NCBI RefSeq assembly: GCF_024662235.1
Contig: NZ_CP096276.1
Coordinates: forward strand, 5,580,001-5,644,000
Direction of reading: 5' to 3'
DNA length: 64,000 nt
Source: Pimelobacter simplex
GTDB lineage: Bacteria; Actinomycetota; Actinomycetes; Propionibacteriales; Nocardioidaceae
Both the position numbers and the translations under genes were made by a program. The notes under the pieces were generated by a model. That model made no database searches. It was not told the DNA's origin and was given only the letters and a program-made list of their open reading frames with translations. Numbering within the stretch: position 1 is the first letter of the stretch; every line of letters starts with the position of its first letter. Positions 20,901 through 35,840 of this stretch are shown in pieces.

Positions 20901-21769
20901 TGGCCGCGGACCGCCTCCTCGTCGGCGCGCTGACCGCCCCGGTCGACCGGGCCGACCTCCCGCCGCGGACCTCGCGCGAGCTGGGCATGGAGCTGGCCGG
21001 CTGGCTGATCGTCAGCCTGCTGTCGTGGCTGTTCTTCGGTGCGATCGCGCTGGGGCTCTCGTTCCTCCCGCCGCGGCCGTGGTGGGCGCTGCTCCCGGCC
21101 GGGATCGCCACGGTGATCACGCTCGGCCTGCTCCGGTCGGCGGTGCGCCCGAACCCGGCGTACCGGGTCCGGCTGGTGCGCCTGGGCCGGTTCGCGGCGG
21201 CCAACGGCATGACGTTCACCCCGCGGCCGGACGCGCCGCACACCGGGCCGGGGCTGATCTTCAACCAGGGCGTGGGGCCGTTGACCCGCGACGTCGTGCG
21301 GATGTCCGAGCCGCGCGAGATCGAGCTGGGACTGCACCACTTCGGCTACGGCCGGAGCGTCTCCGGGTCGAGCGACTGGGCCTATGCGACCACCCCGATC
21401 TCGGACCAGCAGCTGCCGCACCTCGTGCTGCGAGCGCGGGGCCCGTGGACCGACGTCAGCCTGCCCGCCTCGGACGACCAGTCGCTCGGCACGCCCGAGC
21501 TGGAGGGGCCTGGCGCCGAGGCATACCTCGTCCAGGCGCCGATCGGGCGCACCGGCACCGTCGGTCCGCTCCTCGACGCGACCCTCTTCCGCCCCGACGT
21601 GCTCGCCCGGCTGACCGAGCGGCCGGTGCACGTCGAGGTCGTCGACGGGCGGCTCTACCTCTACCGGCGCGAGTCGCTGGTGACCGAGGACCCGGACACC
21701 TGGCGCTGGATCCTCGCGCTCGTCGACGACGTCGCCGCCGTGCTCGAGGATCCAGCGACCGAGCGCTAG
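20900..21769 (+). CDS. Unrecognised two-helix membrane protein
   Basis: Protein of 289 residues that I do not recognise. Two hydrophobic helices (about 32-54 and 60-76) are followed by a soluble, probably cytoplasmic, domain rich in beta strands and containing FGYGRSVSGSSDWAYA. The general layout recalls DUF3137-like proteins. TGATG overlap couples it to the crotonase gene, so a link to the same operon is likely, though no enzymatic motif is visible. Its stop overlaps the convergent aldehyde dehydrogenase stop by 4 nt. Confidence 0.75.
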   Translation: MAADRLLVGALTAPVDRADLPPRTSRELGMELAGWLIVSLLSWLFFGAIALGLSFLPPRPWWALLPAGIATVITLGLLRSAVRPNPAYRVRLVRLGRFAAANGMTFTPRPDAPHTGPGLIFNQGVGPLTRDVVRMSEPREIELGLHHFGYGRSVSGSSDWAYATTPISDQQLPHLVLRARGPWTDVSLPASDDQSLGTPELEGPGAEAYLVQAPIGRTGTVGPLLDATLFRPDVLARLTERPVHVEVVDGRLYLYRRESLVTEDPDTWRWILALVDDVAAVLEDPATER

Positions 21770-23361
21770 CGGACCAGCGCGCCGTCGACCCGGGCCGGCA
21801 GGCCCCACGGGTTGGCGTCCGCGACGGCCGGCGGCAGCAGCGCGTCGGTGAAGCCCTGGTAGGCGACCGGCCGCTGGAAGCGCAGGATCGCCGCGCTGCC
21901 GACCGAGGTGGTGCGGCTGTCGGAGGTCGCCGGGAACGGTCCGCCGTGGACCATCGCGTCGTTGACCTCGACGCCGGTGGGCCAGTCGTTGAGGATCAGC
22001 CGGCCGGCGCGCCGCTCCAGCGTGGGCAGCAGCGCGGCGACGGCGGCGTGGTCGGCGGGCTCGGCGTGGACGCTGATGGTCAGCTGGCCCTCCAGCCCGT
22101 CGAGGGCCGTGCGCAGGGCGTCGACGTCGTCGTAGGTGACGATGAGCGAGGCGGCGCCGAAGACCTCCTCGCGCAGCGCGTCGTCGGTCGCGAAGTCCGC
22201 CAGGTCCGCGGCGTAGACCGCGGGGGCGGGGGCGTTGCGGGTCGGGCCCTCGGCGCCGACGGCGACCAGGGTGGTCCGGTCCGAGGCGTCGAGACGGCCG
22301 ATGCCGTCGGCGTAGGCGCTGCTGATGCTGGGGGAGAGCATCGTCTGGCCGGGGCGGTCGCGCAGCTCGGCAGCCACCGCGGCCCGTACGTCGTCGGCGT
22401 GCGCCGTCGGCACGAACAGCAGGCCGGGGTTCGTGCAGAACTGGCCCGAGCCGAGGGTCAGCGAGCCGACGAAGCCGGTCGCGATCGCCGCGCCGCGCTC
22501 CGCCCAGGCGCCGGGGAGCAGGACGACCGGGTTGACCGAGGACATCTCGGCGTACACCGGGACCGGCTCGGGGCGGGCCGCGGCGGTGCGCATGAGCGCG
22601 GTGCCGCCGCCCTGGGAGCCGGTGAAGGCGATCGCCTTGATGCCGGGGTCGGCGGCGAGGCGCTGGCCGACCGTCGTACCGGGGCCGTAGACGAGGGAGA
22701 AGACGCCGGCCGGCATGCCGCAGGCACGGGCCGCGTCGACGATCGCCCAGCCGGCCAGCTCGGCGGTGCCGGCGTGGGAGTTGTGCGCCTTGACGATCAC
22801 CGGGCACCCGGCGGCGAGCGCCGAGGCAGTGTCGCCGCCCGCGGTGGAGAAGGCGAACGGGAAGTTGCTGGCGCCGAAGACCAGGACCGGGCCGAGCGGC
22901 ACCTGCCGCTGGCGCAGGTCCGGCGCGGGGGCCGGCTGGCGCTCGGGCTGGGCGTGGTCGATCCGGACGCCCTGGTGGTCGCCGAGGTCGAGCTCGCGGG
23001 CGAAGAGCCGCAGCTGGTTGGTGGTGCGGCTCAGCTCGCCGTTGAGGCGCGCCTCGGGCAGGCCGGTCTCGGTGCCGGCGCGGGTGACCAGCGCCTCGCG
23101 AGCGGCCTCCAGGTGGTCGGCGATCGTGCGGAGGAAGGCGGCGCGGACGGCGGGCGTGGTGGCCCGGTAGTCGTCGAAGCAGGCGGTCGCCGCGGCCACG
23201 GCCCGGCCGACCTCGTCGTCGGTCGCCGGGTGGAAGACCGGCTCGACGAGCGCGTCGGTGGCGGGGTCGGTGGCGCGGAACGGCGTCCCGGTCCCGTCGG
23301 GGGCGCCGACCTCGCCGGCGATGATCGAGAGGCCGTGGGGTCGTGCGGTCGAGGGCGTCAT
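21766..23361 (-). CDS. Aldehyde dehydrogenase, 2,5-dioxovalerate (2-oxoglutarate semialdehyde) type
   Basis: NAD(P)-dependent enzyme of 531 residues, longer than usual ALDHs and typical of the 2,5-dioxovalerate dehydrogenase group. It has the cofactor segment VFGASNFPFAFSTAGGD (161-177), catalytic E272 in VYAEMSSVNPVVL and nucleophile C309 in GSGQFCTNPG. The group oxidises 2-oxoglutarate semialdehyde to 2-oxoglutarate at the end of oxidative pentose and aldarate pathways. The start overlaps the SDR stop as ATGA. It is the last gene of the leftward operon; its logical partner, a XylX-type dehydratase, lies in the divergent operon. Confidence 0.88.
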   Translation of the reverse strand: MTPSTARPHGLSIIAGEVGAPDGTGTPFRATDPATDALVEPVFHPATDDEVGRAVAAATACFDDYRATTPAVRAAFLRTIADHLEAAREALVTRAGTETGLPEARLNGELSRTTNQLRLFARELDLGDHQGVRIDHAQPERQPAPAPDLRQRQVPLGPVLVFGASNFPFAFSTAGGDTASALAAGCPVIVKAHNSHAGTAELAGWAIVDAARACGMPAGVFSLVYGPGTTVGQRLAADPGIKAIAFTGSQGGGTALMRTAAARPEPVPVYAEMSSVNPVVLLPGAWAERGAAIATGFVGSLTLGSGQFCTNPGLLFVPTAHADDVRAAVAAELRDRPGQTMLSPSISSAYADGIGRLDASDRTTLVAVGAEGPTRNAPAPAVYAADLADFATDDALREEVFGAASLIVTYDDVDALRTALDGLEGQLTISVHAEPADHAAVAALLPTLERRAGRLILNDWPTGVEVNDAMVHGGPFPATSDSRTTSVGSAAILRFQRPVAYQGFTDALLPPAVADANPWGLPARVDGALVR

Positions 23362-24143
23362 GAGGCGAGCCATCCTCCATCTACGTTGAGCAGCTGTCCG
23401 GTGATGTACGACGAGGCGTCGCTCAGCAGGAAGACCGCTGCCGTGCCGACGTCCTCGGGGGCGCCGAGGTGACCGGCCGGGATCCGGCCGAGGATCCGCT
23501 GCGCGTGGGCCGGCTCGGCGAGCAGGCCCTCGGTCATCTCGGTGCGGAAGTAGCCGGGCCCCACGATGTTGGCGCGCAGGCCGCGGGCGGCCCACTCGGT
23601 CGACAGGGCGCGGGTGATGCCGACGAGCGCGGTCTTCGAGGCGACGTACGGCGAGACGTTGGGCAGCCCGAGGCTGCTGTTGAGCGAGCCGATGAAGACG
23701 TGCGAGCCGCGCTGCTCCGCCGCGAGCTGGCGGCGGGCGAGCGCGGTGCTCAGGAAGTACGGCGCGTCGACGTTGAGCGCCTGGACCCGGCGCCAGCCGG
23801 CCACCTCGACCTCGACCGCCGGCCCGCGCAGCTGGACGCCCGCCGCGTGGACGACGCCGTCGACCGGGGCGATCTCCCAGAGCCGCTCCGCGAGGGCGTC
23901 GAGGCTCTCGGTGTCGGTCAGGTCGTGGGCGACGCTCGTGCAGGTGCCGCCGGCGGCGCGGACCTCGTCCGCGGCGTCGTCGAGCTGCTCCTGCGAGCGG
24001 GCGACGAGGGTGACCCGGGCGCCGCCGGCGGCGGCGCAGAGCGCGATCGCGCGCCCGATCCCGCGGCCACCGCCGGTCACCACGACGTGCCGGTCGTGGA
24101 GGCCGAAGGCCGCGGGGAGGGGGCGCTGGGTGGTCAGGTCCAT
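23358..24143 (-). CDS. SDR-family sugar/gluconate-type dehydrogenase
   Basis: Classical short-chain dehydrogenase of 261 residues. It has TGGGRGIG (23-30) for NAD(P), NNAG-like HAAG, catalytic Ser in FIGSLNS and the YVASK active-site motif, ending in ITGQLLNVDGGW. Closest in feel to 2-deoxy-gluconate 3-dehydrogenase and gluconate 5-dehydrogenase. Within this operon it would oxidise a sugar or sugar acid. It is coupled to the aldehyde dehydrogenase by ATGA and lies 30 nt downstream of the GntR gene. Confidence 0.88.
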   Translation of the reverse strand: MDLTTQRPLPAAFGLHDRHVVVTGGGRGIGRAIALCAAAGGARVTLVARSQEQLDDAADEVRAAGGTCTSVAHDLTDTESLDALAERLWEIAPVDGVVHAAGVQLRGPAVEVEVAGWRRVQALNVDAPYFLSTALARRQLAAEQRGSHVFIGSLNSSLGLPNVSPYVASKTALVGITRALSTEWAARGLRANIVGPGYFRTEMTEGLLAEPAHAQRILGRIPAGHLGAPEDVGTAAVFLLSDASSYITGQLLNVDGGWLAS

Positions 24144-24173
24144 CGAGGTCCTCTCAGGAGGGGAGGGGCGGTG

Positions 24174-24875
24174 TCAGTCGAGCAGCGCGTCGGTGTCGGC
24201 GAGGACGCGCAGGAGGTGCTGGCGGGCGTGGCGCCCGGCCGCGGTGACGTCGCGGGCGAAGACCGCATCGGCGATCTCCTGGTGCTCGCGCAGCGTGTTG
24301 TCGCGCGCGGCCTCGTAGCCGAGCGTGGGCCGGTAGGCCCCGCGCAGGTAGTCGTTGATCGGGTTGATGATGTGGGTGAAGAACGGGTTGTGCGAGGCCT
24401 GGGCGAGCGCGGAGTGGAACTCCAGGTCGGCCTCGAGCGCGGTCGCGTGGTCGACCTCGTGGCCCTCGAACGAGCGCAGGGCGTCCTCGATGTGGCGCTT
24501 GTCGTCGGCGGTGTAGCGCTCGGCGGCGTGCTCGATCATCCCGACCTCCAGGGCCAGGCGCATCTCCATCAGCTCGCGGAAGCTGCCGCGCTTCATCTGC
24601 AGCAGGAGCTCGAACTGGCGGGCGAAACCGGTGCCGTCGAAGTCGGCGACGACCATGCCGCGGCGCGGCCGGATCTCGACCAGGCCGCGCTCGACCAGGA
24701 TCCGGCTGGCCTCGCGGATGACCGTGCGGCTGACGTCGAATTGCTCGACGAGCTCGGGCTCGGTGGGCATCCGGTCGCCCGGCTTGAGCTCCTGGGCGAC
24801 CACCTGCTGGATCAGCGCGTCCGCGACCTGCTCGGAGAGCCGGGTCTTGCGCGGGCCGGACGTGGACGTGGTCAT
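24174..24875 (-). CDS. GntR-family regulator, FadR/FCD subfamily
   Basis: Repressor-type regulator of 233 residues. The N-terminal winged helix contains LKPGDRMPTEPELVEQF and VSRTVIREASRIL. The all-helical FCD domain has the metal/ligand residues D and H in LEADLEFHSAL, and His in REHQEI and GRHARQHL. FCD regulators usually bind sugar acids or other organic acids, which fits the enzymes around it. ATGA-coupled to the 2-hydroxyacid dehydrogenase upstream. A palindrome in the divergent promoter region is its probable operator. Confidence 0.93.
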   Translation of the reverse strand: MTTSTSGPRKTRLSEQVADALIQQVVAQELKPGDRMPTEPELVEQFDVSRTVIREASRILVERGLVEIRPRRGMVVADFDGTGFARQFELLLQMKRGSFRELMEMRLALEVGMIEHAAERYTADDKRHIEDALRSFEGHEVDHATALEADLEFHSALAQASHNPFFTHIINPINDYLRGAYRPTLGYEAARDNTLREHQEIADAVFARDVTAAGRHARQHLLRVLADTDALLD

Positions 24876-25867
24876 GCGGTCGCTCCTTGGGTCACGGTCC
24901 CGGCGACGGGGCATCGCAGGGGCTCGCCCCGCAGCGCACGGCCGGCTTCCTCGCTGGCCAGGCGCTGCAGCCGGTCGAGGGAGTCGGTCGCGTAGAACGC
25001 GGCATGGGGGGTGAGCACGAGGTGAGGAGCATCTCGCAGCGGGGAGTCGCTCGCCCAGGGTTCGGGGTCGGTGACGTCGAGCGCCGCCGCCGCGAGGTGA
25101 CCGTCGATCAGCGCGGCCGCGAGGGCCGCCTCGTCGACGAGTCCGCCGCGCGCGGTGTTGACCAGGATCGCGCCGGCGGGCAGCGCCCGGAGGAAGTCCG
25201 CGTCGACCAGGTGCCGGGTGTCGGGGGTGAGCGGGGCGTGCAGCGAGACCGCGGACGAGCGCGCCAGCAGCTCGGGCAGCGTGACCGGCTCGACGCCGTG
25301 GGCGGTGACGACCTCGGCGGGGCAGTGCGGGTCGTGGGCGATGATCGTGCAGCCGAAGGGCGCCAGGCGCCGGGCGACCTCCTGGGCGATCCGGCCGAAG
25401 CCCACCAGGCCGACGGTCATCTGGGCCAGGCCGGGCAGCGGACCCACGTCGCCGGGCCGGGCCCAGCCGTGGCGCCGCACCAGGGCGTCGTACGACGTCA
25501 GGCGGCGCGCGAGCGAGAGCACGCTCGCCGCGGCGTGGTCGGCCACGGTGCTGACGCCGTAGTCGGGGACGTTGGCGACGCGCACCCCCAGCTCGTCGGC
25601 GGCCGCGACGTCGACGTTGTCGTAGCCGATGCCGTAGCGGACCACCGTCGCCCCGGGCGCCATCGCGGCCAGCACCGCACGGGTGACGGGCGCGAAGTTC
25701 ACGAAGGCGACGTCCGCGCCGGTGACCGCCGCGACGGTCTCGGCCTCGTCGGTGCACGCGTGGACGGCGAAGGCGCAGTCGAGCTCGGCCGCCACCCGCT
25801 CCTCGTGGGCGGTGTCGACGAACGCGTGATCGGTGACGACGACGCGGCGGGAGTGCTCGGCGGCCAT
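24872..25867 (-). CDS. D-2-hydroxyacid dehydrogenase family protein
   Basis: NAD(P)-dependent oxidoreductase of 331 residues, CtBP/phosphoglycerate-dehydrogenase-like. It has the Rossmann motif GLVGFGRIAQE (about 153-163), the catalytic arginine in VNTARGGLVDE, glutamate in DVTDPEP and histidine in TPHAAFY. It would interconvert a 2-keto acid and a 2-hydroxy acid, consistent with a sugar-acid pathway. First gene of the leftward operon; its 131-bp upstream region is shared with the divergent transporter operon. Substrate not predictable. Confidence 0.9.
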   Translation of the reverse strand: MAAEHSRRVVVTDHAFVDTAHEERVAAELDCAFAVHACTDEAETVAAVTGADVAFVNFAPVTRAVLAAMAPGATVVRYGIGYDNVDVAAADELGVRVANVPDYGVSTVADHAAASVLSLARRLTSYDALVRRHGWARPGDVGPLPGLAQMTVGLVGFGRIAQEVARRLAPFGCTIIAHDPHCPAEVVTAHGVEPVTLPELLARSSAVSLHAPLTPDTRHLVDADFLRALPAGAILVNTARGGLVDEAALAAALIDGHLAAAALDVTDPEPWASDSPLRDAPHLVLTPHAAFYATDSLDRLQRLASEEAGRALRGEPLRCPVAGTVTQGATA

Positions 25868-25917
25868 GCGGTCTCCAGTCGGCTGGGAGGGGATCCTCGA
25901 TTTGAGGGGTTGATCGT

Positions 25918-25927
25918 ATCATATGAT
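25918..25927. promoter_or_regulatory. Palindrome in divergent promoter, candidate GntR operator
   Basis: ATCATATGAT is a perfect 10-bp palindrome inside an AT-rich patch that stands out from the surrounding GC-rich DNA. It lies between the divergent 2-hydroxyacid dehydrogenase and BMP lipoprotein genes, where the encoded FadR-type regulator would control both operons. Short AT-rich palindromes are typical of this subfamily. Role inferred. Confidence 0.6.
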
Positions 25928-25997
25928 GATTGATATGTTCCGGATCACAGCCGCCGCAGCACCGTGCTCGGCAGCGTGCTCGACCGAGGAGATTCCG

Positions 25998-27038
25998 ATG
26001 ACCACGAAACTTCCGTTCTTCGCCTCCGCGACCCGGCGCCCGTTCGTCAAGCGCGCGAGCGTGGTGGCGAGCGCGGCCGTTCTCGCTGTCGGTCTGACGG
26101 CGTGCGGAGGAGCCAAGCCCAAGGCCTCGGGGTCCGACGACGAAGGCCTCTCGGTCGGCATCTTCGTCGACAACGCCTTCGGTGACGGCGACTTCTTCGA
26201 CCAGGCCGCGGCCGCCGAGAAGCCCCTGGAGTCCGACCTGGACGCCAAGGTCAACACCTACGAGGGCCAGCTGCAGGCCCAGAACTTCGAGCCCCTCCTG
26301 CAGGATGCGGCCGACGCCAACGACATCGTCTTCGTGCTCGGCTTCGAGGCGATCGACGCGCTCGTCAAGGTGGCCGACGAGAACCCCGACACCCAGTTCG
26401 TGTTCGTCGACGGCACCGTCGACAGCCCCAACGTGGTCTCCGCGGAGTTCCGCACGGCCGAGGGCTGCTACATGGCCGGCGCGCTGGCCGCGACCGTCAA
26501 CGCAGCCGCGGGCGCCAAGGCCGCCGGCTTCGTCGGCGGCATCGACGCCCCGGTGATCAAGAACTGCGAGTCCGGCTACACCCAGGGTGTCGCCGAGGTC
26601 GACCCGGCCCAGAAGGTCACCCCCCAGTACGCCGGCTCGTTCGTCGACCCTGCCAAGGGCCGCGAGATCGCGCTCGCGCTGCAGCAGAAGGGCGCCCACT
26701 CGATCTTCGCCTACGCCGGCCTGACCGGCGCCGGCATCTTCGACGCCGCCAAGGCCGACGGCAAGATCGCGCCGATCGGCGTGGTCGCGGACAAGAGCTC
26801 GCTGGCCCCCGGCAAGACGTCGGGCAGCCTGGAGATGGGTGTCGACACGGTCCTGCTGGCGCTGGTGAAGGACTACCAGGGCGGCGACCTGGAGCAGGGC
26901 AGCCAGCACACCTACGGTTTCGCCGAGGGTGGTTGGAAGATGGTCTACGACGAGGCCCTGGTCGGTGCCGACGGCATCGCGCAGCTCGACGCCCTCCAGG
27001 AGCGGATCTCCTCCGGGGAGCTCAAGATCAGTGAATGA
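25998..27038 (+). CDS. BMP-family substrate-binding lipoprotein of an ABC importer (Nup/Pnr type)
   Basis: Lipoprotein of 346 residues. The signal peptide ends in the lipobox VGLTAC (C36), then a Gly/Ser/Asp linker and a BMP domain with VGIFVDNAFGDGDFFDQAA, a FVDG turn and VGGIDAPVIKNCESGY. BMP proteins such as PnrA and NupN bind nucleosides in most characterised cases. The ATG is preceded by GAGGAG at 6-11 nt; earlier in-frame ATGs give a poor leader. First gene of the rightward operon, facing the GntR operon. Nucleoside specificity is a family inference. Confidence 0.9.
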   Translation: MTTKLPFFASATRRPFVKRASVVASAAVLAVGLTACGGAKPKASGSDDEGLSVGIFVDNAFGDGDFFDQAAAAEKPLESDLDAKVNTYEGQLQAQNFEPLLQDAADANDIVFVLGFEAIDALVKVADENPDTQFVFVDGTVDSPNVVSAEFRTAEGCYMAGALAATVNAAAGAKAAGFVGGIDAPVIKNCESGYTQGVAEVDPAQKVTPQYAGSFVDPAKGREIALALQQKGAHSIFAYAGLTGAGIFDAAKADGKIAPIGVVADKSSLAPGKTSGSLEMGVDTVLLALVKDYQGGDLEQGSQHTYGFAEGGWKMVYDEALVGADGIAQLDALQERISSGELKISE

Positions 27039-28581
27039 GACGACGAGGCCGGACGCCCCGCTGCTCGAGGCGTCCGGCATCACCAAGCGGTTCGGCCCGG
27101 TGGTCGCCAACGAGGACGTCCACCTGGACCTGCGCGCCGGTGAGGTGCACGCCCTGGTCGGGGAGAACGGCGCGGGCAAGACGACGCTGATGCGGATGCT
27201 CTTCGGGATGTACCAGCCCGATGCCGGCGTGATCCGGGTCCGCGGCGAGGAGCGGCACTTCCGCCGTCCCCAGGACGCGATCGACGCCCAGATCGGCATG
27301 GTGCACCAGCACTTCATGCTGGTGCCCACGTTCACCGTGGCCGAGAACATCACGCTCGGCGCGGAGCCGGGCGGGCCCGGGCTCTACAGCAAGGACCGGG
27401 CCAAGGAGGCGATCGCCGAGCCGATGCGGCGCCTGGGGGTCGACATCGACCCCGAGGCGGTGACCGGCAAGCTCAGCGTCGCCACCCAGCAGAAGATCGA
27501 GATCGTCAAGGTCCTCTACCGCGGCGCGCGGGTGCTGATCCTCGACGAGCCGACCGCCGTACTGACGCCGCAGGAGACGACCGAGCTCTTCGAGCTCCTG
27601 CGTCGCCTGGCGGCCGAGGGCTCGGCGATCGTGTTCATCTCGCACAAGCTGGGCGAGGTCTTCGCGGTGGCCGACCGGATCACCGTGCTGCGCCGCGGCC
27701 GCACCGTCGGCACGTACGACGCCGCGGCCACCGACGCCGCCGAGGTGGTCGCCGCGATGACCGGTCGCAGCGACGTCAACCTCGGCCGGGTCGAGCGGGT
27801 GGTCCCCGAGGAGCAGCCCCCGGTGCTCCTCGTCGACGCCATCAGCACCGAGAAGCCCGGCCACGACGCGGCCCTCGACGCGGTGTCCTTCACCGTGCGC
27901 GCCGGCGAGATCCTCGGGATCGCCGGCGTCGAGGGCAACGGCCAGACCGCCCTCGCCGAGGCGCTGGTCGGCACGCTCGCCCTCACCGGCGGCACGGTGT
28001 CGATCTCCGGCACCGACGTCGGCGGCATGGACGTCGCGACCCGGCGCGACCGCGGCCTGGGCTACGTCCCGGAGGACCGGCACCACGAGGGACTGCCGAT
28101 CAACGGCACGGTCCTCGAGGCGATCGCGCCGTGCGAGGTGCGCAAGCGCACCGGGCTCGGCGTCCTCGCCAGCGCGCTGAGCGCCAAGGTCCGGGCCACG
28201 GCGACCGGCCTGGTCCGTGAGTACGACATCAAGGCCGCCGGCGTCGACGCCGTCTGCAGCACGCTCTCGGGCGGCAACCAGCAGAAGATCGTCGTCGCCC
28301 GCGAGCTCGAGGAGCAGCCTGCCTGCCTGGTGCTGGCGCAGCCGACGCGCGGCGTCGACCTGGGCGCCATCGAGTACCTCTACGGCCGGATCGCCGAGGC
28401 GACCGCCCGCGGGTGCGCGGTGCTGCTGGTCTCGGCCGACCTCGACGAGATCCTGCGCCTCTCCGACCGGGTGCTGGTGATGTACCGCGGCCAGGTGGTC
28501 GCGGAGAAGCGGACCCTCGACACGACCCGCGAGGAGCTGGGCATGCACATGATGGGCGCGACCACGGGAGGTGCCTCATGA
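27031..28581 (+). CDS. ABC importer ATPase with two nucleotide-binding domains (NupO/RbsA-like)
   Basis: Fused double ATPase of 516 residues. The first domain has GENGAGKTT, LSVATQQKIEIVKVL and LILDEPTAVLTPQE. The second has a degenerate Walker A, GVEGNGQTA, signature LSGGNQQK, and LAQPTRGVDLGA where Walker B would read DEPTRG. Such asymmetry is standard in RbsA/NupO proteins. GTG start, overlapping the lipoprotein stop by 8 nt, with GGGGAG upstream. It energises the two permeases that follow. Confidence 0.94.
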   Translation: MNETTRPDAPLLEASGITKRFGPVVANEDVHLDLRAGEVHALVGENGAGKTTLMRMLFGMYQPDAGVIRVRGEERHFRRPQDAIDAQIGMVHQHFMLVPTFTVAENITLGAEPGGPGLYSKDRAKEAIAEPMRRLGVDIDPEAVTGKLSVATQQKIEIVKVLYRGARVLILDEPTAVLTPQETTELFELLRRLAAEGSAIVFISHKLGEVFAVADRITVLRRGRTVGTYDAAATDAAEVVAAMTGRSDVNLGRVERVVPEEQPPVLLVDAISTEKPGHDAALDAVSFTVRAGEILGIAGVEGNGQTALAEALVGTLALTGGTVSISGTDVGGMDVATRRDRGLGYVPEDRHHEGLPINGTVLEAIAPCEVRKRTGLGVLASALSAKVRATATGLVREYDIKAAGVDAVCSTLSGGNQQKIVVARELEEQPACLVLAQPTRGVDLGAIEYLYGRIAEATARGCAVLLVSADLDEILRLSDRVLVMYRGQVVAEKRTLDTTREELGMHMMGATTGGAS

Positions 28582-29705
28582 CGACGGCGCCCACGACGTC
28601 CGCGACCGAGCCGGCGGCTCCGGCCCCGGCGCCGCCGGACAAGCCGGGCTGGCGCTCGGTCGCCGGCCGCCAGGCGGCCGCGATCGGCTACACCGTGGTG
28701 ATCGGCCTGGTGCTGGCCTCGGTGCTGATCTACAGCCAGGGCTACGCGCCGTTCGCGACGATCCAGAGCGGCCTCCAGTACGCCGTCGGCGACCCCACCC
28801 AGGTCGCCCGGACGTTCGCCTGGGGCCTGCCGCTCTACGTCGCCGCGCTCGGCGTCGCGATCGCCTTCCGCTCCGGCATGTTCAACATCGGCGCCGAGGG
28901 CCAGATGTACGCCGGCGCCCTCGCCGCCGCGCTCACCGGCGCCTACCTCGGCCCGCTGTTCTCGCCCGCGCACCTGCTGCTCTGCACGCTGGCGGCGGGT
29001 CTGGCCGGTGGCCTGATCGCGGCCGGCCTCGGCTGGCTGCGCGCCGCCTGGGGCGTCGACGAGGTGCTCTCGACGCTGCTGTCGAACTACATCGTCATCC
29101 TCTTCTGCGCCTACCTCGCGATCGGTCCCCTGCGCGACACCACGCGCCAGAGCGGCACGACCAAGGAGGTCGCCGACACCGCCCGCTTCGACGAGATCGT
29201 GTCGCGCAGCGGCCTGACCACGGCCGTGTTCGTGGTGGTCGTCGTCGCGATCGTGATCTGGTGGCTCAGCGAGCGCTCGGTGCTCGGCTACCGCTGGCGG
29301 ATGACGGGGGAGAGCCCCGCCTTCGCCTCGTCCGTCGGCATCGACGTCTTCCGGGCGCGGGTCTCCTCGATGGCGCTGAGCGGCTTCGTGTGCGGTGTCG
29401 CCGGCTCGCTGCTGGTCACCGCCTCGCAGGGCCGGTTCTGGACCGAGATCGCCTCGGGCATCGGCTGGGACGGCGTGCTCATCGCGCTCGTCGCCCGCTC
29501 CCGTCCCGTGGCCACGGTCATCTGGGTGAGCGTCTACTGCGTGATGCGCTCGGCCGCCCGCGGCATCGAGCAGGCCTCCGACGTCCCCTCGGAGCTCTCG
29601 CTGGTGCTCATCTCGGCCATCATCATCGCGGCTGCCGCCCAGGCGCGCGTGTTCCACCAGTTCGCCCAGCTGCGTCACCGCCTGGGCTCGTTGCGGAGGT
29701 CGTGA
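28578..29705 (+). CDS. ABC importer permease, NupP/YufP-like
   Basis: Membrane permease of 375 residues in the BPD_transp_2 family. An Ala/Pro-rich cytoplasmic N-terminus precedes about eight to ten helices. The family stretches FRSGMFNIGAEGQMYAGAL and GVDEVLSTLLSNYI are clear. It is paired with the second permease one nucleotide downstream and coupled to the ATPase by ATGA. This is the nucleoside/sugar-type branched permease pair used with BMP binding proteins. Confidence 0.93.
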   Translation: MTTAPTTSATEPAAPAPAPPDKPGWRSVAGRQAAAIGYTVVIGLVLASVLIYSQGYAPFATIQSGLQYAVGDPTQVARTFAWGLPLYVAALGVAIAFRSGMFNIGAEGQMYAGALAAALTGAYLGPLFSPAHLLLCTLAAGLAGGLIAAGLGWLRAAWGVDEVLSTLLSNYIVILFCAYLAIGPLRDTTRQSGTTKEVADTARFDEIVSRSGLTTAVFVVVVVAIVIWWLSERSVLGYRWRMTGESPAFASSVGIDVFRARVSSMALSGFVCGVAGSLLVTASQGRFWTEIASGIGWDGVLIALVARSRPVATVIWVSVYCVMRSAARGIEQASDVPSELSLVLISAIIIAAAAQARVFHQFAQLRHRLGSLRRS

Positions 29706-29706
29706 C

Positions 29707-30630
29707 ATGGATTGGCTCGACGCATTTCTCGGATCGGGGATGCGCTTCACCACCCCGATCCTGCTGGCCGCGCTCGGCTGCCTGGTCACCTCCTGGACCA
29801 GGGACCTGAACGTCGGCCTGGAGGGCGCCATGATCTTCGGCGCCTTCTTCGGGGTCGCGTTCGGCCTCGAGCTCGGCTCGGGGCTGGGCGCGATCCTGGT
29901 CACGCTCCTCGCCGCGGCCGTGGCCGGGCTGCTGTTCGGCATCCTGATCACGACGTACCGGGTCAACGTGTTCGTCGCAGGCATCGTGCTCAACGTCTTC
30001 GGCGCCGGCGCGACGGTCTTCCTGCTGCGCTCGATCTACGGCGTCAAGGGCGCCCTGGCCGACGACGGCATCCCGCGCCTGGCCCGGATCGAGATCCCCG
30101 TCATCAAGGACATCCCGATCCTCGGCGGGCTCGTCTCGGGCCACACCGTGCTCACCTACCTCGCGTGGGTGCTGGTCGGCGTGACCGTCTGGGCGGTGCG
30201 CAACAGCGTCGTCGTCCGGCACCTCAAGGCGGCCGGTGAGCACCCCGAGGCGCTGGAGACCGCCGGCGGCAACGTCCAGCGGATGCGGATCCTCGCCCAG
30301 GTGTGGTGCTTCATGCTCTGCGCCCTGGCCGGGGCCCAGATGAGCATCGGCCAGCTCTCCCTCTTCACCGAGGGGATGACGAGCGGGCTCGGCTTCGTCG
30401 CGGTCGCCGCGGCGATCTTCAGTCGCGGCAACGTGCTCTGGCTCGCCGCGATCTCCACCGTGTTCGGCCTCTCGTCGGCGGCCGGCGTCCAGATCAACGA
30501 GGAAGTCATGCCCCCACAGTTCGCCCAGATGATCCCGTACGTCGTGGCCCTCGTCGGGCTCGTCGTCCTGGCCCGCACCTCCAAGGTCGACCAGGTCCGG
30601 ATCGCCACGCCCCAGCTGCAGGCCGACTGA
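29707..30630 (+). CDS. ABC importer permease, NupQ/YufQ-like
   Basis: Second BPD_transp_2 permease, 307 residues with about eight helices. Conserved segments are DLNVGLEGAMIFGAFFGV and the late GLGFVAVAAAIFSRGN. The ATG lies two nucleotides after the previous stop, and its stop overlaps the deaminase-like gene (TGATG). Together with the lipoprotein, ATPase and first permease it makes a complete importer. Confidence 0.93.
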   Translation: MDWLDAFLGSGMRFTTPILLAALGCLVTSWTRDLNVGLEGAMIFGAFFGVAFGLELGSGLGAILVTLLAAAVAGLLFGILITTYRVNVFVAGIVLNVFGAGATVFLLRSIYGVKGALADDGIPRLARIEIPVIKDIPILGGLVSGHTVLTYLAWVLVGVTVWAVRNSVVVRHLKAAGEHPEALETAGGNVQRMRILAQVWCFMLCALAGAQMSIGQLSLFTEGMTSGLGFVAVAAAIFSRGNVLWLAAISTVFGLSSAAGVQINEEVMPPQFAQMIPYVVALVGLVVLARTSKVDQVRIATPQLQAD

Positions 30631-31073
30631 TGCGCGCCGTACCGCTGGAGCCCGAGGACGTCGCCCTCTACGAGCGCGCCGTCGAGGTCCTCGCCGCGTC
30701 CTTCGACCCGGTCGTGCACCAGGTCGCGGCCGCCGCCCGTACGGCGAGCGGCGAGGTCTTCCCCGGCCTGCACGTCGGCTCGCGCCGGGTCAACGTGTGC
30801 GCCGAGGCCTCGGCCATCGCCAACGCCGAGATGCACAACGCCGGCCAGGTCGTCGCGATGGTCGCGGTCTGCCGCGACGAGAACGGACGCACGGTCGTCA
30901 CCAACCCGTGCGGCCTGTGCCGCGAGCTGATGGGCCACTACGGCCCCGACGCGTGGGTGCTGATCGACCGCGGCGGCGAGGTGGTCAAGGTCCGCTCCGG
31001 CGACCTGATGCCCTCGCCGTGGAACTTCCCCCACGAGAACGACTGGGACGTCGCCGACCCGACCGCTCCCTGA
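30630..31073 (+). CDS. Cytidine deaminase-like protein
   Basis: Protein of 147 residues with the CDA zinc site: C57-A-E59 (VNVCAEASAIANAEM, with E59 the proton shuttle) and P93-C94-G-L-C97 (TNPCGLCREL). Tetrameric CDAs convert cytidine or deoxycytidine to uridine derivatives. The C-terminus (LMPSPWNFP, then an acidic tail) differs from the usual LLPxxF ending, so the ligand may differ. Its TGATG coupling to a nucleoside-type importer supports a nucleobase-containing substrate for the pathway. Confidence 0.83.
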   Translation: MRAVPLEPEDVALYERAVEVLAASFDPVVHQVAAAARTASGEVFPGLHVGSRRVNVCAEASAIANAEMHNAGQVVAMVAVCRDENGRTVVTNPCGLCRELMGHYGPDAWVLIDRGGEVVKVRSGDLMPSPWNFPHENDWDVADPTAP

Positions 31074-31109
31074 CCCACCCGCCTTCCACCGCACCCCAGG
31101 AGGATCCCC

Positions 31110-31535
31110 ATGCCCGGACTCCAGCTCACCGACATCTGCCTGGTCACCCGCGACCTCGACGCCGCGGTCGACTTCTACACCGACAAGCTCGGCTACCAGC
31201 TCAAGTCGCGGATGCCCGGCTTCGCCGACTTCACCCGCAACGGCGTCATCCTCGCGCTGTGGGACGCGAGCGCGATCCGCGATTCCACCGGCGTCCCGGC
31301 CGCCGTCGAGGCCCCGACCGGGCACGGCGTGATGATGGCCGTCGAGGTCGAGAGCCCCGACGAGGTCGACCGCGAGCACGCCCGGCTCACCGCCCTGGGC
31401 GTCGAGTTCTACGCCCCGCCCAAGGACTACGCGTGGAACGCCCGGTGCGCCTACTTCGCCGGCCCGTGCGGCGAGTTCTGGGAGCTCTTCGCCTGGCACG
31501 AGGGCGGCGCCCCCGGTGCCGTCGACCCGTCCTGA
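31110..31535 (+). CDS. VOC-superfamily (glyoxalase/dioxygenase fold) protein
   Basis: Small protein of 141 residues with paired beta-alpha-beta-beta-beta modules. DICLVTRDLDAAVDFYTDKL opens the fold, and CGEFWELFAW supplies the glutamate expected as a metal ligand near the C-terminus. The VOC fold covers glyoxalase I, epimerases, dioxygenases and resistance proteins, so the reaction is not predictable. It lies 36 nt after the deaminase-like gene and 48 nt before the FAH-family gene, with GGAGGA before the ATG. Confidence 0.85.
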   Translation: MPGLQLTDICLVTRDLDAAVDFYTDKLGYQLKSRMPGFADFTRNGVILALWDASAIRDSTGVPAAVEAPTGHGVMMAVEVESPDEVDREHARLTALGVEFYAPPKDYAWNARCAYFAGPCGEFWELFAWHEGGAPGAVDPS

Positions 31536-31583
31536 CCGTCCCTTCCTTCCCCTGAACGAACCTGCCGAGAACGAGGAGCACCT

Positions 31584-32762
31584 GTGCTGACCATGGACCG
31601 ACTGCTGCCGAACGACCGGGAGCGCGCCACGCTCGTGGGCCGGGTCTGGGACCCGGCCGAGCGCGGACCCGTGCTCGTCGTGGTCGCCGGCGACGACGCG
31701 GTCGACGTCACCGACCTGGGCCCGACCTGCTCGACGCTGCTGGAGCGGCACGACGCCGCCGCGCTGCGCGCCGCCGCAGCCGACCCGACCCGGCGTCGCT
31801 GGTCGCTGGCCACGCTGATCGAGGCGTTCGGCGACGAGCGCGACCCCGAGGTGGCGCGGCTGCTGTCGCCGGTCGACCTCCAGGTGCTCAAGGCCGCCGG
31901 CGTGACCTTCGTCGAGAGCATGGTCGAGCGGGTCATCGAGGAGCGTGCCCAGGGCGACCTGCAGCAGGCCGAGGCGATCCGCGGCCAGCTCGCCGACGCC
32001 ATCGGCGGCGCGATCTCCCAGGTGAAGCCGGGCTCCGAGGCCGCCGAGAAGGTCAAGCAGATCCTCGTCTCCGAGGGTCTCTGGTCGCAGTACCTCGAGG
32101 TCGGCATCGGCCCCGACCCGGAGATCTTCACCAAGGCGCCGGTCCTCTCGTCGGTCGGCGTCGGCGCCACCATCGGCGTCCTGAGCCGCTCGGCGTGGAA
32201 CAACCCCGAGCCCGAGGTCGCCCTCGTCGCCCGGGCGGACGGCACGCCCGTCGGCGCGATGCTCGGCAACGACGTCAACCTGCGCGACTTCGAGGGCCGC
32301 AGCGCGCTGCTGCTCACCGAGGCCAAGGACAACAACGCCTCGTGCGCGCTGGGCCCGTTCATCCGGCTCTTCGACGAGGACTTCGGCATCGACGACGTCC
32401 GCGGGCTCGACGTGCACCTGACCGTCGAGGGCCCCGAGGGCTTCCGGATGGACGGCGTCAGCTCGATGAGCAACATCAGCCGCGACCCGCTCGAGCTGAT
32501 CGGCCACACCTGCGGCGCGCACCACCACTACCCGGACGGCTTCGTGCTGCTCACCGGCACGCTCTTCGCGCCCACCCAGGACCGGCACGGTCCCGGCCAG
32601 GGCTTCACCCACGTCGTCGGTGACGTCGTCCGGATCTCGGCCGACCGGCTCGGCGAGCTCGTCAACGTCGTCGATCACGCCGAGACCGCACCGCCGTGGA
32701 CGTTCGGCATCTGGGACCTCGTCGAGAGCCTCAACCGGCGCTCGCTGCTGGCCGCCGGCTGA
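31584..32762 (+). CDS. FAH-family 2-keto-3-deoxy-pentonate dehydratase-like protein (XylX type)
   Basis: Protein of 392 residues, the length of Caulobacter XylX, which dehydrates 2-keto-3-deoxy-xylonate to 2-oxoglutarate semialdehyde. A variable N-terminal half is followed by the FAH core. Matching features are GIGPDPEIFTKAP, WNNPEPEVAL with metal-binding glutamates, GNDVNLRDFEGRSALLL, and the C-terminal PPWTFGIWDLVESLNRRSLL. The GTG start is preferred over an ATG 9 nt later because GAGGAG lies 5 nt upstream. Its expected product is the substrate of the dioxovalerate-type dehydrogenase in the facing operon. Confidence 0.83.
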   Translation: MLTMDRLLPNDRERATLVGRVWDPAERGPVLVVVAGDDAVDVTDLGPTCSTLLERHDAAALRAAAADPTRRRWSLATLIEAFGDERDPEVARLLSPVDLQVLKAAGVTFVESMVERVIEERAQGDLQQAEAIRGQLADAIGGAISQVKPGSEAAEKVKQILVSEGLWSQYLEVGIGPDPEIFTKAPVLSSVGVGATIGVLSRSAWNNPEPEVALVARADGTPVGAMLGNDVNLRDFEGRSALLLTEAKDNNASCALGPFIRLFDEDFGIDDVRGLDVHLTVEGPEGFRMDGVSSMSNISRDPLELIGHTCGAHHHYPDGFVLLTGTLFAPTQDRHGPGQGFTHVVGDVVRISADRLGELVNVVDHAETAPPWTFGIWDLVESLNRRSLLAAG

Positions 32763-32790
32763 CCCGACCCACGACCCGAAGGAAACCCCC

Positions 32791-34158
32791 ATGTACGCCA
32801 CCGTCAACCCCGCCACCGGCGAGCTCGTCGAGTCCTTCGAGCCCGCCACCGACGCCGAGGTCGAGGCCGCGCTGAGCGGCGTCGCCGGCTCGTTCGCCAC
32901 CTGGTCCGCCCGCCCGCTCGCCGAGCGCGCCGCGATCGTGCACCGGGTCGCCGACCTCTTCGAGGAGCGCGCCGACGAGCTCGCCGCGATCATCACCCTC
33001 GAGATGGGCAAGCGGCTCGAGGAGTCGCGCGGCGAGATCGACATCGTCGCCGCGATCTTCCGCTACTACGCCGACAACGGCGCGACCTTCCTCGCCGACC
33101 AGGAGCTCACCATCGAGGGCGGCCGCGCCCTGGTGCAGAAGCGCCCGATCGGCGCGGTGCTCGGGATCATGCCGTGGAACTACCCGTACTACCAGGTCGC
33201 CCGGTTCGCCGCGCCCAACCTGGTGCTCGGCAACACGATCGTGCTCAAGCACGCCCCGAGCTGCCCCCGTACGGCGCTCGCCATCGCCCGCGTGATGGCC
33301 GACGCCGGCGTCCCCGAGGACGTCTACGTCAACCTGCTCGCCACCAACGACCAGGTCGCCACGATGATCGACGACCCGCGCATCCAGGGCGTCTCGCTCA
33401 CCGGCAGCGAGCGGGCCGGTGCCGCGGTCGCCGCCCGCGCGGGCCAGAACCTCAAGAAGGTCGTCCTCGAGCTCGGCGGCTCCGACCCGATGATCGTGCT
33501 CGACAGCGCGGACGTCGCCGCCACGGCCCGCGAGGCCGTCGCCTCGCGGATGGGCAACATGGGCCAGGCCTGCAACGCGCCCAAGCGGATGATCGTCCTC
33601 GCCGACCTGTACGACGACTTCCTGGCCGGTCTCGTCACCGCCATGGGCGAGTTCGTGCCCGGCGACCCGGCCGACCCGGCGACCACCCTCGCCCCGCTCT
33701 CGTCGCTGGCCGCGGCCGACAAGCTCGTCGACCAGCTCGAGCGCGCCGTCGCGCAGGGTGCCACCGTGCACACCGGCGGCGGCCGGGTGGACCGCCCCGG
33801 CGCCTTCGTCGAGCCGACCGTGCTCACCGGCGTCGTCCCCGGCACGGACGCCTACCGCGAGGAGCTGTTCGGTCCCGTCGCGATCGTCTTCCGCGCCGAG
33901 TCCGAGGAGGAGGCCGTGGCCCTGGCCAACGACACCCCCTTCGGCCTGGGCTCCAGCGTGTTCAGCACCGACCTCGAGCGCGCCCAGCGCGTGGCCGACC
34001 GGATCGACGCGGGCATGGTCTACCTCAACGCGGCCGGCGGCTCGCAGCCCGACCTGCCCTTCGGCGGCACCAAGCGCTCCGGCATCGGCCGTGAGCTCGG
34101 CCCGGTCGGCATGGACGAGTTCGCCAACCACCGGGTGCTGCGCATCCCGGCCTCCTGA
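32791..34158 (+). CDS. NAD(P)-dependent succinate-semialdehyde-type aldehyde dehydrogenase
   Basis: Aldehyde dehydrogenase of 455 residues. It has the cofactor segment IMPWNYPYYQVARFAAP (126-142), catalytic E227 in LELGGSDP, nucleophile C261 in MGQACNAPKRM and FGPVAIVF. MYATVNPATGE at the N-terminus and overall length fit the short GabD/Sad group, which uses succinate semialdehyde and similar omega-acid aldehydes. It may act on 2-oxoglutarate semialdehyde or on a different intermediate from the longer ALDH in this island. Last gene of the rightward operon, before a strong terminator. Confidence 0.9.
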   Translation: MYATVNPATGELVESFEPATDAEVEAALSGVAGSFATWSARPLAERAAIVHRVADLFEERADELAAIITLEMGKRLEESRGEIDIVAAIFRYYADNGATFLADQELTIEGGRALVQKRPIGAVLGIMPWNYPYYQVARFAAPNLVLGNTIVLKHAPSCPRTALAIARVMADAGVPEDVYVNLLATNDQVATMIDDPRIQGVSLTGSERAGAAVAARAGQNLKKVVLELGGSDPMIVLDSADVAATAREAVASRMGNMGQACNAPKRMIVLADLYDDFLAGLVTAMGEFVPGDPADPATTLAPLSSLAAADKLVDQLERAVAQGATVHTGGGRVDRPGAFVEPTVLTGVVPGTDAYREELFGPVAIVFRAESEEEAVALANDTPFGLGSSVFSTDLERAQRVADRIDAGMVYLNAAGGSQPDLPFGGTKRSGIGRELGPVGMDEFANHRVLRIPAS

Positions 34159-34212: not shown

Positions 34213-35748
34213 CTAGTAGGACGTCTGCGACTGCACGTTGAGCTCGTCGACCTTGACCCGCTGGGCGCCGGCGATCCGCCGGTCACGCAGCCGGAAGACG
34301 TCGAAGCCCTGCTGGATGTCGCTGGAGTAGATGTGGCCGTTGTACCAGTACGCCGACCACGAGCCGCCCAGCACGAGCCGCTCGGTCGACAGCGGCCCGC
34401 GGTCGAAGTACGCGATCTCCTGGGGACGGGCCGAGTCGGTGAAGTCCCACACCGAGATGCCGCCCTGGTACCAGGCCTGGACCATGATGTCGCGCCCGCG
34501 CACCGGGATCAGCGAGCCGTTGTGGGCCACGCAGTTCTCGGTGTTGGCCTGGGTCCGCGGGATCTTGAAGTAGGAGCGGAAGACCAGCTTGCCGCGGCGG
34601 ATGTCGTAGATGCCGTCGGCGCCCTTGACCGAGCCGACCGTCGGGTTGCAGGTCGGGCCGCCGCCCCCGCCGAGCTCGTCGGTGAAGACCACCTTGGTGC
34701 CGGCGTTGTTGAAGGTCGCGGAGTGCCAGAACGCGAAGTTCTCGGTGTCACGGACCCGCTCGGTGACCACCGGGTGCTCGCGGTCGGAGATGTCGACCAG
34801 GATGCCGTCGCCCATGCAGGCGCCCGCCATCACGTTCTTGCGGGCGTACGCCGTGAGGTCGTGGCAGCCGGAGGTGGTCGAGGAGTAGCCGCCGCTCGGG
34901 TTGCCGCCGTCGGGGAAGAGCACGGGCGTGCTGACCACGCGGGCGTCCTGGGGCCGGCGCAGCGGCACCTTGACCACGCTGACCTGGTCGTGCGGCGGCT
35001 GGCAGTCGGGGAAGCTCGCGTTGGGTGAGTACGACGAGACGTAGACGTAGAGGTCGCGCCGGTTCTTCGACGGCGCGAGCGTGTGGGTGTGCGAGCCGCA
35101 CGCGGTCTCGACGGCGGCGACGTAGCGCGGCGCCCGCGGGTTGCTGATGTCGAAGACCCGGATGCCCTCCCACGACTCCTTGATCGTGGCCGACTGGGGC
35201 ACGTTGGCGCAGCTGTCGTTGCTGCGGCTGGAGTCGACGCTCAGCACCAGGACGTCGCCGTAGACGGAGATGTCGTTCTGGGAGCCGGCGCAGAGCACCT
35301 GGGTGACGATGCGGGGACGCTGCGGCTTGCGGATGTCGTAGACGGTGAAGCCGTCGTAGTTGCCCTGGAAGGCGTAGTCGCCCTGGAACGCCAGGTCGGT
35401 CTCGAACGACGTCTCGCCCGCGAACGCGCCGGACTTCGGCAGGTTGGCCAGGAGCGTGATGTTGCGGCTCTTGTCGATCTCGCCGGGGGCGAGCACCGCG
35501 TCGGTGTCGTCGAGCCGGGCCAGGTCCTGGCCGGGCAGGCAGGCGTCGTCGAAGTTGTCGCCCGCCCGCTCGGCCTGGCGCAGCAGGCCCGGTGGGCACG
35601 GGGACGACGCGGTCGCGCCCGGCGCGTTGTCGTGGTCGTGGTCGTCGTGCGCGTCGGCCGGCACGGTCAGTGCCGAGATGCCGAGGGCCAGGGTGCCCAG
35701 CGCGGTGAAGCAGAGGGCACGCAGCCCTGAGGGGGCGAGTTTCGCCAT
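34213..35748 (-). CDS. Secreted LVIVD-repeat (beta-propeller-like) protein
   Basis: Exported protein of 511 residues. A signal peptide (about 1-35, ending VPADA) is followed by a His/Asp-rich stretch, HDDHDHDN, that could bind metal. The body holds LVIVD-type repeats: GFTVYDIRKPQRPRIV, GIRVFDISNPRAPRYV and GILVDISDREHPVV. About eight cysteines suggest disulfides outside the cell. No enzymatic motif. GGGAG precedes the chosen ATG; a GTG two codons earlier is possible. Divergent from a DUF305 lipoprotein gene, so the pair may share a promoter region and a metal-related role. Confidence 0.85.
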   Translation of the reverse strand: MAKLAPSGLRALCFTALGTLALGISALTVPADAHDDHDHDNAPGATASSPCPPGLLRQAERAGDNFDDACLPGQDLARLDDTDAVLAPGEIDKSRNITLLANLPKSGAFAGETSFETDLAFQGDYAFQGNYDGFTVYDIRKPQRPRIVTQVLCAGSQNDISVYGDVLVLSVDSSRSNDSCANVPQSATIKESWEGIRVFDISNPRAPRYVAAVETACGSHTHTLAPSKNRRDLYVYVSSYSPNASFPDCQPPHDQVSVVKVPLRRPQDARVVSTPVLFPDGGNPSGGYSSTTSGCHDLTAYARKNVMAGACMGDGILVDISDREHPVVTERVRDTENFAFWHSATFNNAGTKVVFTDELGGGGGPTCNPTVGSVKGADGIYDIRRGKLVFRSYFKIPRTQANTENCVAHNGSLIPVRGRDIMVQAWYQGGISVWDFTDSARPQEIAYFDRGPLSTERLVLGGSWSAYWYNGHIYSSDIQQGFDVFRLRDRRIAGAQRVKVDELNVQSQTSY

Positions 35749-35840
35749 GGTCACTCCCGAGATTGAATGAACACGCTGGCCTGATGCTCGCCTATGGTGA
35801 GCCAGGTCACAACCCCTCGGGGGGAGAAGGAGTGTTCTCG

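Follow-up and report, generated by a model that had tools for sequence, protein, structure and literature searches.

A conserved divergent island in Pimelobacter simplex suggests that a diverged nucleoside-type importer and deaminase are joined to a 2-oxoglutarate ending

What kind of substrate would call for an importer and a deaminase from the families of nucleoside salvage next to enzymes that could complete an oxidative pentose route? The question is raised by a divergent island of 12 genes at 21766-34158 of the window, by which we mean the whole stretch of 64,000 nucleotides of Pimelobacter simplex DNA that was analysed. Open reading frame calls and Pfam searches found every gene where the original prediction had placed it, and Pfam backed a family assignment for each of the 12 island proteins. 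The minus-strand wing comprises four genes: an aldehyde dehydrogenase (ALDH1; 21766..23361; PF00171) that is a candidate 2-oxoglutarate-semialdehyde dehydrogenase, an SDR oxidoreductase (23358..24143) whose nearest NCBIfam model, KduD, scores below its cut-off, a GntR regulator with an FCD domain (24174..24875; PF00392 and PF07729), and a D-2-hydroxyacid dehydrogenase (HADH; 24872..25867; PF02826 and PF00389) whose relatives are annotated as 'C-terminal binding protein'. The eight genes of the plus-strand wing encode a BMP-family lipoprotein, the binding protein of the importer (25998..27038; PF02608), a double ABC ATPase (27031..28581; two PF00005 stretches), two permeases (28578..29705 and 29707..30630; both PF02653), a CDA-like zinc deaminase (30630..31073), a VOC-fold protein (31110..31535), a FAH-type protein (31593..32762; PF01557) that is a candidate 2-keto-3-deoxypentonate dehydratase of XylX/COG3970-like type, and a short SSADH-type aldehyde dehydrogenase of 455 residues (ALDH2; 32791..34158; PF00171, PDB 3vz0). 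With the start codons chosen in this analysis, five of the junctions overlap by 1-8 bases. Long antisense reading frames, such as one of 1059 aa at 24174-27353, were taken as mechanical products of the high GC content.

Whether the two wings travel together in other genomes was one of the points on which the original prediction had been staked beforehand, and they do: all 12 genes are collinear in seven of nine homologous BMP-type loci, which come from six genera, and chance juxtaposition of the wings is thereby ruled out. The other two loci are less complete. One (L011) keeps 10 of the 12 genes, with both ALDHs absent from the stretch compared, and a Streptomyces locus (L017) keeps six, without FAH and the entire minus wing; the 2-oxoglutarate ending is thus not obligatory for the core of importer, CDA and VOC protein. 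Among 96 relatives, the BMP protein (E<=1e-60) occurs in exactly two, and a CDA of more than 60% identity only in those same two. FAH relatives at 56-61% identity are also found in three of the 96 that lack the island, which means that the presence of FAH does not by itself mark the island.

The divergent spacer carries a palindromic box (25910..25932, with the core ATCATATGATGAT at 25918-25930) that is present in all nine spacers compared, namely those of the window and of eight loci, L017 being left out as it has no minus wing. The exact 10-base core is kept in six of these nine, and a variant occurs in the three from Leucobacter. Given this conservation across divergent spacers, the box is probably an operator, through which the GntR protein would act on both wings. 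A scan of the same spacer for sigma-70-type promoters found nothing. We also considered that genes missing from the island might lie elsewhere under the same regulator. When up to one mismatch is allowed, the 13-base box matches the genome at this one place only. At that stringency it is therefore unlikely that the regulator controls unlinked genes as well, which leaves room for weaker operators or constitutive genes.

For the importer and the deaminase the genome itself holds a built-in control, a separate canonical nucleoside locus (L080) with BMP, Cdd and thymidine phosphorylase. BMP-type nucleoside import systems go by the name Nup, and the PF02608 protein, double ATPase and two BPD_transp_2 permeases of the island are all present as in BMP nucleoside-salvage operons. 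The island and the canonical locus share a BMP lipoprotein, a double ATPase (49% identical), permease homology and a CDA-family deaminase, but the island BMP and CDA proteins are only 24% and 29% identical to their counterparts, the phosphorylase is missing, and sugar-acid enzymes are attached. Moreover, the island BMP protein and its nine orthologues have V and M at the two positions that are D and K in BmpD and in the 6yab lipoprotein, presumably a nucleoside binder; these positions, as in PnrA, we take to be ribose contacts in BMP nucleoside binders, and the genome's BMP paralogue at C1:340531 retains both. The N-x-E motif, which we take to be the ribose-binding motif of cytidine deaminase, is likewise kept in the Cdd of the canonical locus (CNVENAAYG), whereas it is absent from the aligned segment of the island CDA (LHV--GSRR), in the window and in all nine loci. 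The nucleoside of the original prediction is therefore supported in part: both proteins lack the presumed ribose-contacting residues, which weakens the case for an ordinary nucleoside; most likely, importer and deaminase have diverged from nucleoside salvage.

These residues bear directly on ordinary pyrimidine nucleoside use, in which cytidine or deoxycytidine would be imported and deaminated, an unlinked nucleosidase would free the ribose, and a Weimberg-like oxidation would follow. A BMP importer and a CDA do occur together in the canonical locus too, and the genome has one ORF of the nucleoside hydrolase family and eight enolase-type matches elsewhere. However, the canonical locus, with D, K and N-x-E in place, already serves such use, the island proteins lack all three throughout, and with up to one mismatch allowed the genome contains the spacer box just once; we regard this explanation as unlikely.

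The deaminase belongs to a subfamily with the motifs GLHxGSRRxNVCAE and PCGxCRE. The zinc motifs CAE and PCxxC, as well as the S-R-R block beside them, are invariant in the 26 CDA sequences aligned (A1). The model of the island CDA comes closest to blasticidin S deaminase, and one could accordingly imagine the handling of a nucleoside antibiotic: a blasticidin-S-like aminopyrimidine would be taken up, the deaminase together with the VOC protein would inactivate it, and the cell would consume its sugar acid. The identity is only 27%, though, and a common fold is no proof of function; the island enzyme differs from blasticidin S deaminase in its conserved block GLHxGSRRxN and in its catabolic setting, and resistance alone needs neither an importer nor so many oxidoreductases, so that we hold antibiotic handling to be quite improbable. 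More distant relatives of the CDA occur in seven more genomes from a class sample of 394 and in two further ones (G008 and G047), nine in all; in the eight of them that were compared (all but G137), the matches besides the CDA were limited to weak ones of ABC or SDR type. On plasmids, 25 records match, all below 60% identity, and among the 20 listed, nine are named cytidine deaminase and the others are otherwise named or nameless.

How, then, might the carbon skeleton be used? FAH matches 9kkt with 405 bits and 2q18 with 64.5 bits, the latter with the EIF, PEPE and DV..RD blocks aligned, and it is the only copy in the genome; its assignment as a 2-keto-3-deoxypentonate (KDP) dehydratase is credible from these alignments. 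For the aldehyde dehydrogenases of the island, and of an Arthrobacter locus treated below (L019), all NCBIfam scores fall under the curated cut-offs. ALDH1 had been predicted to be of dioxovalerate type, of which a weak similarity stands (109.7 bits), far under the curated cut-off of 750; among solved structures it comes nearest to the ALDHs 3v4c, whose name includes NADP+, and 1eyy. ALDH2 reaches 489 bits against a cut-off of 730. Four contexts, a selection, were examined from 321 plasmid records with FAH matches, and in two of them, C. deserti and R. opacus, a FAH relative clusters with an enolase-type protein and adjoins an 'aldehyde dehydrogenase (NADP(+))' 43-46% identical to ALDH1. In Variovorax, FAH is accompanied by another kind of ALDH as well as by an altronate-dehydratase-type gene; the R. 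leguminosarum stretch examined has neither an ALDH nor a dehydratase.

The dehydrogenases of the minus wing also have company elsewhere. HADH is 55% identical to a gene in FAH-HADH-SDR clusters on two Paracoccus plasmids, and in Paracoccus kondratievae an SDR gene next to FAH and HADH encodes a protein 36% identical to the SDR of the island. Three of 2712 plasmid records with HADH matches were examined, the last being unannotated and without a FAH or SDR match; no FAH or SDR match lies near the R. opacus HADH relative (48%). In one Paracoccus cluster (L062; the same order recurs in L063), FAH, HADH, SDR and an ALDH are 50%, 55%, 36% and 36% identical to their island counterparts, the last value referring to ALDH2, but a sugar ABC importer, xylulokinase, RpiA and an RpiR-type regulator take the place of BMP, CDA and VOC.

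According to PMC6336799, the oxidative pentose pathway of Weimberg (Route II) ends with a FAH-type dehydratase (XylX/COG3970, the KDP dehydratase) and an ALDH (KGSA dehydrogenase), to which the candidate dehydratase and the ALDHs of the island would correspond. Unlike that pathway, the island has no lactonase, acid-sugar dehydratase or assigned sugar dehydrogenase; it contains a D-2-hydroxyacid dehydrogenase, and a deaminase and a BMP importer are attached to it. Indeed, Pfam found among the 12 proteins no nucleosidase (nucleoside phosphorylase or hydrolase), no lactonase and no acid-sugar dehydratase of the IlvD/EDD, enolase or UxaA type, in agreement with the original prediction; elsewhere, besides the enolase-type proteins, the genome has one IlvD/EDD match. 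The earlier proposal that a pentose is oxidised to 2-oxoglutarate thus gains from the clustering of FAH and ALDH1 relatives and from two KDP-dehydratase families beside one deaminase family, and loses by the lack of a sugar-acid dehydratase in the island; on these comparisons, pentose oxidation is plausible.

The second dehydratase family comes from Arthrobacter-type loci, where the same deaminase family occurs with a DHDPS-type protein and an ALDH in 21 of 21 cases, the query source L019 included. The second PDB match of the L019 DHDPS protein is an L-2-keto-3-deoxyarabonate dehydratase, and the best NCBIfam model of its ALDH, below cut-off, is 2,5-dioxovalerate dehydrogenase. For the dehydration of D- and L-KDP, PMC9795676 names the families FAH and DHDPS. 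These pairings suggest that the 2-oxoglutarate ending is indicated twice, by unrelated enzymes beside one deaminase family. The two kinds of locus are bridged by L017, where the BMP importer, CDA and VOC are accompanied by a protein related to the XRE-cupin regulator found in the Arthrobacter cluster.

The Arthrobacter locus also speaks to a substrate that is not an N-heterocycle at all, in which case the CDA-like enzyme would have been recruited for another amidine or imine (a cyclic amidine acid, for instance) and a small zwitterion would be what the importer takes up. Its transporter fits best, below cut-off, the metabolite:H+ symporter subfamily TIGR00883 (264.6 of 443 bits), and the S-R-R block of the CDA could bind a carboxylate, although the L019 enzyme has S-K-R. 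The VOC relatives, in contrast, recur beside heterocycle-type importers, in three of the four contexts examined from 144 records in one search and 112 in another, and we consider such a substrate improbable. In S. meliloti pSymA (L061), a VOC protein 50% identical to that of the island directly follows a BMP importer; the alignment of its BMP protein with that of the island covers no more than half of the latter, at 30% identity. On the other side of the VOC gene lie a RihA-like nucleoside hydrolase, a pairing that would suit ordinary nucleoside use, and, two genes on, an ATZ/TRZ triazine/purine-type deaminase; this amidohydrolase-family enzyme, the hydrolase and a GMC oxidoreductase replace the CDA, FAH and HADH of the island. 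In R. johnstonii, a VOC relative adjoins an NMT1/THI5-type importer, and the exception is Paracoccus marcusii, where a more distant VOC (28%) has no such importer beside it.

We hypothesize, from sequence and gene neighbourhood, that a diverged importer and deaminase of nucleoside salvage are most likely joined to a Weimberg end for an amino-heterocycle whose sugar or acid part is not ordinary ribose. The importer, made up of the BMP lipoprotein, the double ATPase and both permeases, would take up an amino-substituted N-heterocycle whose carbon chain or sugar is not recognised as ordinary ribose, the CDA-like enzyme would deaminate the ring, and the VOC protein may bind or act on the ring compound. 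SDR and HADH would then convert the liberated C5 portion to a 2-keto-3-deoxy acid, which FAH would dehydrate to 2-oxoglutarate semialdehyde, and ALDH1, ALDH2 or both would oxidise this to 2-oxoglutarate. Taken as a whole, with enzymatic steps, their order, the operator role and the substrate class as we infer them, the chances are slightly better than even that the well-bounded and conserved island is one co-regulated catabolic unit from import to 2-oxoglutarate. A more specific version, which we advance as a rather long shot, is that the compound taken up is an N-glycoside with a sugar that has no 3'-hydroxyl (3'-deoxynucleoside-type) or has a carboxylate replacing the ribose hydroxyl pattern: SDR would oxidise the freed 3-deoxy sugar, and HADH would lead from 3-deoxypentonate straight to 2-keto-3-deoxypentonate, with no need for an acid-sugar dehydratase. 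Such a substrate would explain the missing dehydratase, the presence of HADH and the lost sugar contacts of BMP and CDA alike. If this N-glycoside version is true, it would be, to our knowledge, the first pathway dedicated to turning a deoxy- or modified nucleoside into 2-oxoglutarate.

No description of the gene set was found in the titles and abstract openings that searches of the open literature listed; the parts of the island are familiar, whereas as a conserved catabolic unit it is apparently undescribed. The island suggests that families of importers and deaminases have shifted away from ribonucleosides and become connected to 2-oxoglutarate via two unrelated dehydratase families. For the VOC protein, structure matches are scattered over binding, resistance and enzyme members, and we therefore claim no chemistry for it; one VOC structure, 4mym, whose title states no function, gains a genomic setting from the island.

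Each of the twelve genes that the original prediction had assigned to the divergent island was found within 21766-34158 with Pfam support. Outward from the central spacer, the minus wing encodes a D-2-hydroxyacid dehydrogenase (HADH), an FCD-type GntR regulator, an SDR and a first aldehyde dehydrogenase (ALDH1, 21766-23361, minus strand), while the plus wing encodes, in order, a BMP lipoprotein, a double ATPase, permeases 1 and 2, a CDA-like zinc deaminase, a VOC protein, an FAH protein as candidate 2-keto-3-deoxypentonate (KDP) dehydratase, and the short, 455-residue ALDH2 (32791-34158, plus strand). With the start codons adopted, ALDH1/SDR, GntR/HADH, BMP/ATPase, ATPase/permease 1 and permease 2/CDA overlap by 1-8 bases. 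The FAH gene is the sole copy of its kind in the genome, which is a close match to Pimelobacter simplex (family Nocardioidaceae). Pfam analysis of the 12 proteins also bore out that the island encodes neither a nucleosidase nor an acid-sugar dehydratase; elsewhere in the genome there are eight enolase-type hits, together with a single ORF of the nucleoside hydrolase family and a single IlvD/EDD protein. Just past the island, the product of 34213-35754 has a weak match, at 50 of 100 bits, to the choice-of-anchor B model, and divergent from it lies a gene (35763-36545) for a small protein which we take to be DUF305-like.

When the 84,980 species of the genome_contigs collection were scanned with a pattern from the CDA alignment, 30 loci were obtained. 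Seven of them (L010-L016) share, ordered as in the window, the genes for BMP, ATPase, both permeases, CDA, VOC, FAH, HADH, GntR and SDR; six of these carry both ALDHs as well, with neither seen in the Leucobacter locus L011 within the stretch examined. The Streptomyces violaceusniger locus (L017) comprises BMP through VOC only, 21 loci (L018-L038, all Arthrobacter but for one Pseudarthrobacter bin) place CDA in a different cluster, and L039 showed none of the island's genes apart from CDA. With another complete island in the genome G032, the co-occurrence of both wings that the prediction called for was seen as all 12 genes in 7 of 9 BMP-type loci, and the island is a conserved unit. L010, whose CDA is 99% identical to the window's, represents nearly the same organism and does not make an independent case. 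The complete islands come from six genera: Pimelobacter, Nocardioides, Microtetraspora, Arthrobacter, Paeniglutamicibacter and Leucobacter. In a set of 96 relatives, the same two have both the BMP protein (E<=1e-60) and a close CDA, two further ones have CDA matches at 37-44%, and five have FAH (E<=1e-60), three of them without the island. The L017 ATPase gene (6473-8036), matched as two pieces in tblastn and with an ORF of just 274 aa, may be broken or mis-sequenced, and a 56% FAH relative with one internal TGA (G052:C21:155419-156561) is possibly a decayed copy.

The HADH-BMP spacer spans 130 bases and contains TTGATCGTATCATATGATGATTG at 25910-25932. When the spacers of the window and eight loci were compared (L017, having no minus wing, was left out), six of the nine had the exact core ATCATATGAT, the three Leucobacter loci had ATCATAGTATGAAT in its place, and 15 of the 17 invariant alignment columns fell within 25910-25931. 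The 13-base core occurs once genome-wide at up to one mismatch; at up to two, the expected count in the window is 0.03. This box is probably the operator of the GntR protein, serving both wings.

A canonical locus of the same genome (L080, C1:333000-351000) serves as internal control for the island. There, BMP-ATPase-permease genes diverge from a cytidine deaminase (above the PRK05578 and below the TIGR01354 cut-off), with a thymidine phosphorylase, above its cut-off, two genes on. Its BMP protein retains the D and K common to BmpD and the 6yab lipoprotein, whereas the island BMP and nine orthologues have V and M at these positions; likewise, N-x-E is kept in the L080 cytidine deaminase but missing from the island CDA. 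These residues are presumably ribose contacts. Of the predicted import of a nucleoside-like compound, the BMP importer and the CDA family stood; these replacements weaken the case for an ordinary nucleoside and suggest that the island substrate is probably something else. BmpD is reported to bind the ribose moiety as PnrA does (PMC7093131), and since AtzT, likewise a BMP-family match, binds guanine and hydroxyatrazine (PMC6834077), the family is not confined to nucleosides.

The strongest argument for a 2-oxoglutarate ending is the link of one deaminase family to two candidate dehydratases that are unrelated to each other but would act at the same step. With queries all drawn from one locus, L019, itself among the 21, the CDA family was accompanied by a DHDPS-family protein, an ALDH, an SDR and an enoyl-CoA-hydratase-like protein in 21/21 Arthrobacter-type loci, and by an FAD oxidoreductase (PF12831), an XRE-cupin regulator and an MFS transporter in 20/21. 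The first PDB hit of the L019 DHDPS protein is named merely dihydrodipicolinate synthase and the second, at 72.6 bits, is L-2-keto-3-deoxyarabonate dehydratase; the best NCBIfam model for its ALDH is 2,5-dioxovalerate dehydrogenase (495 of 750 bits, under cut-off). Among structurally solved KDP dehydratases, those acting on D-KDP are reported to be FAH proteins and those acting on L-KDP to be DHDPS proteins (PMC9795676), and for a Herbaspirillum COG3970 FAH protein the dehydration of D-KDP to 2-oxoglutarate semialdehyde was demonstrated (PMC6336799). L017 bridges the two cluster types, with a relative (53%) of the Arthrobacter XRE-cupin regulator preceding its BMP-CDA-VOC operon.

The surroundings of FAH relatives (55-58% identity) were examined on four plasmids. 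An ALDH1 relative (43-46%) and an enolase-type protein adjoin FAH in Corynebacterium deserti and Rhodococcus opacus, Variovorax has another kind of ALDH and an altronate-dehydratase-type gene, and neither ALDH nor dehydratase was found in the Rhizobium leguminosarum stretch examined. In the latter species (L042:4044-8119), two Gfo/Idh/MocA oxidoreductases and a VOC protein at 30% identity to that of the window diverge from a XylX-type FAH and adjoin urea carboxylase and allophanate hydrolase. On two Paracoccus plasmids, FAH, HADH and SDR are contiguous, near an ALDH, a sugar ABC importer, xylulokinase and RpiA, and these stretches contain no annotated acid-sugar dehydratase; such FAH/SDR neighbours were not found beside an R. 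opacus HADH relative.

Most likely, a compound would be imported and deaminated, its C5 part released and a 2-keto-3-deoxy acid formed, which FAH would dehydrate before oxidation to 2-oxoglutarate. In a more speculative reading, a 3-deoxy sugar as part of the substrate would make an acid-sugar dehydratase needless. Every protein family in the island is already known; for the combined gene set, no description was found among the open-access papers listed, as judged from titles and abstract openings. We file the island as a probable catabolic assembly that shares its end part with the Weimberg route and its importer and deaminase types, here diverged, with nucleoside salvage.

For the VOC protein, a Nocardioides relative has already been solved (4mym), followed among structure matches by binding, resistance and enzyme members. 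A VOC gene also lies on S. meliloti pSymA (L061:4416-14884), where genes for a UDG-annotated protein (no Pfam match), a GMC oxidoreductase, a NIPSNAP protein and a BMP importer come before it and those for a nucleoside hydrolase and an amidohydrolase come after it; this cluster resembles a distinct unit for N-glycoside catabolism.
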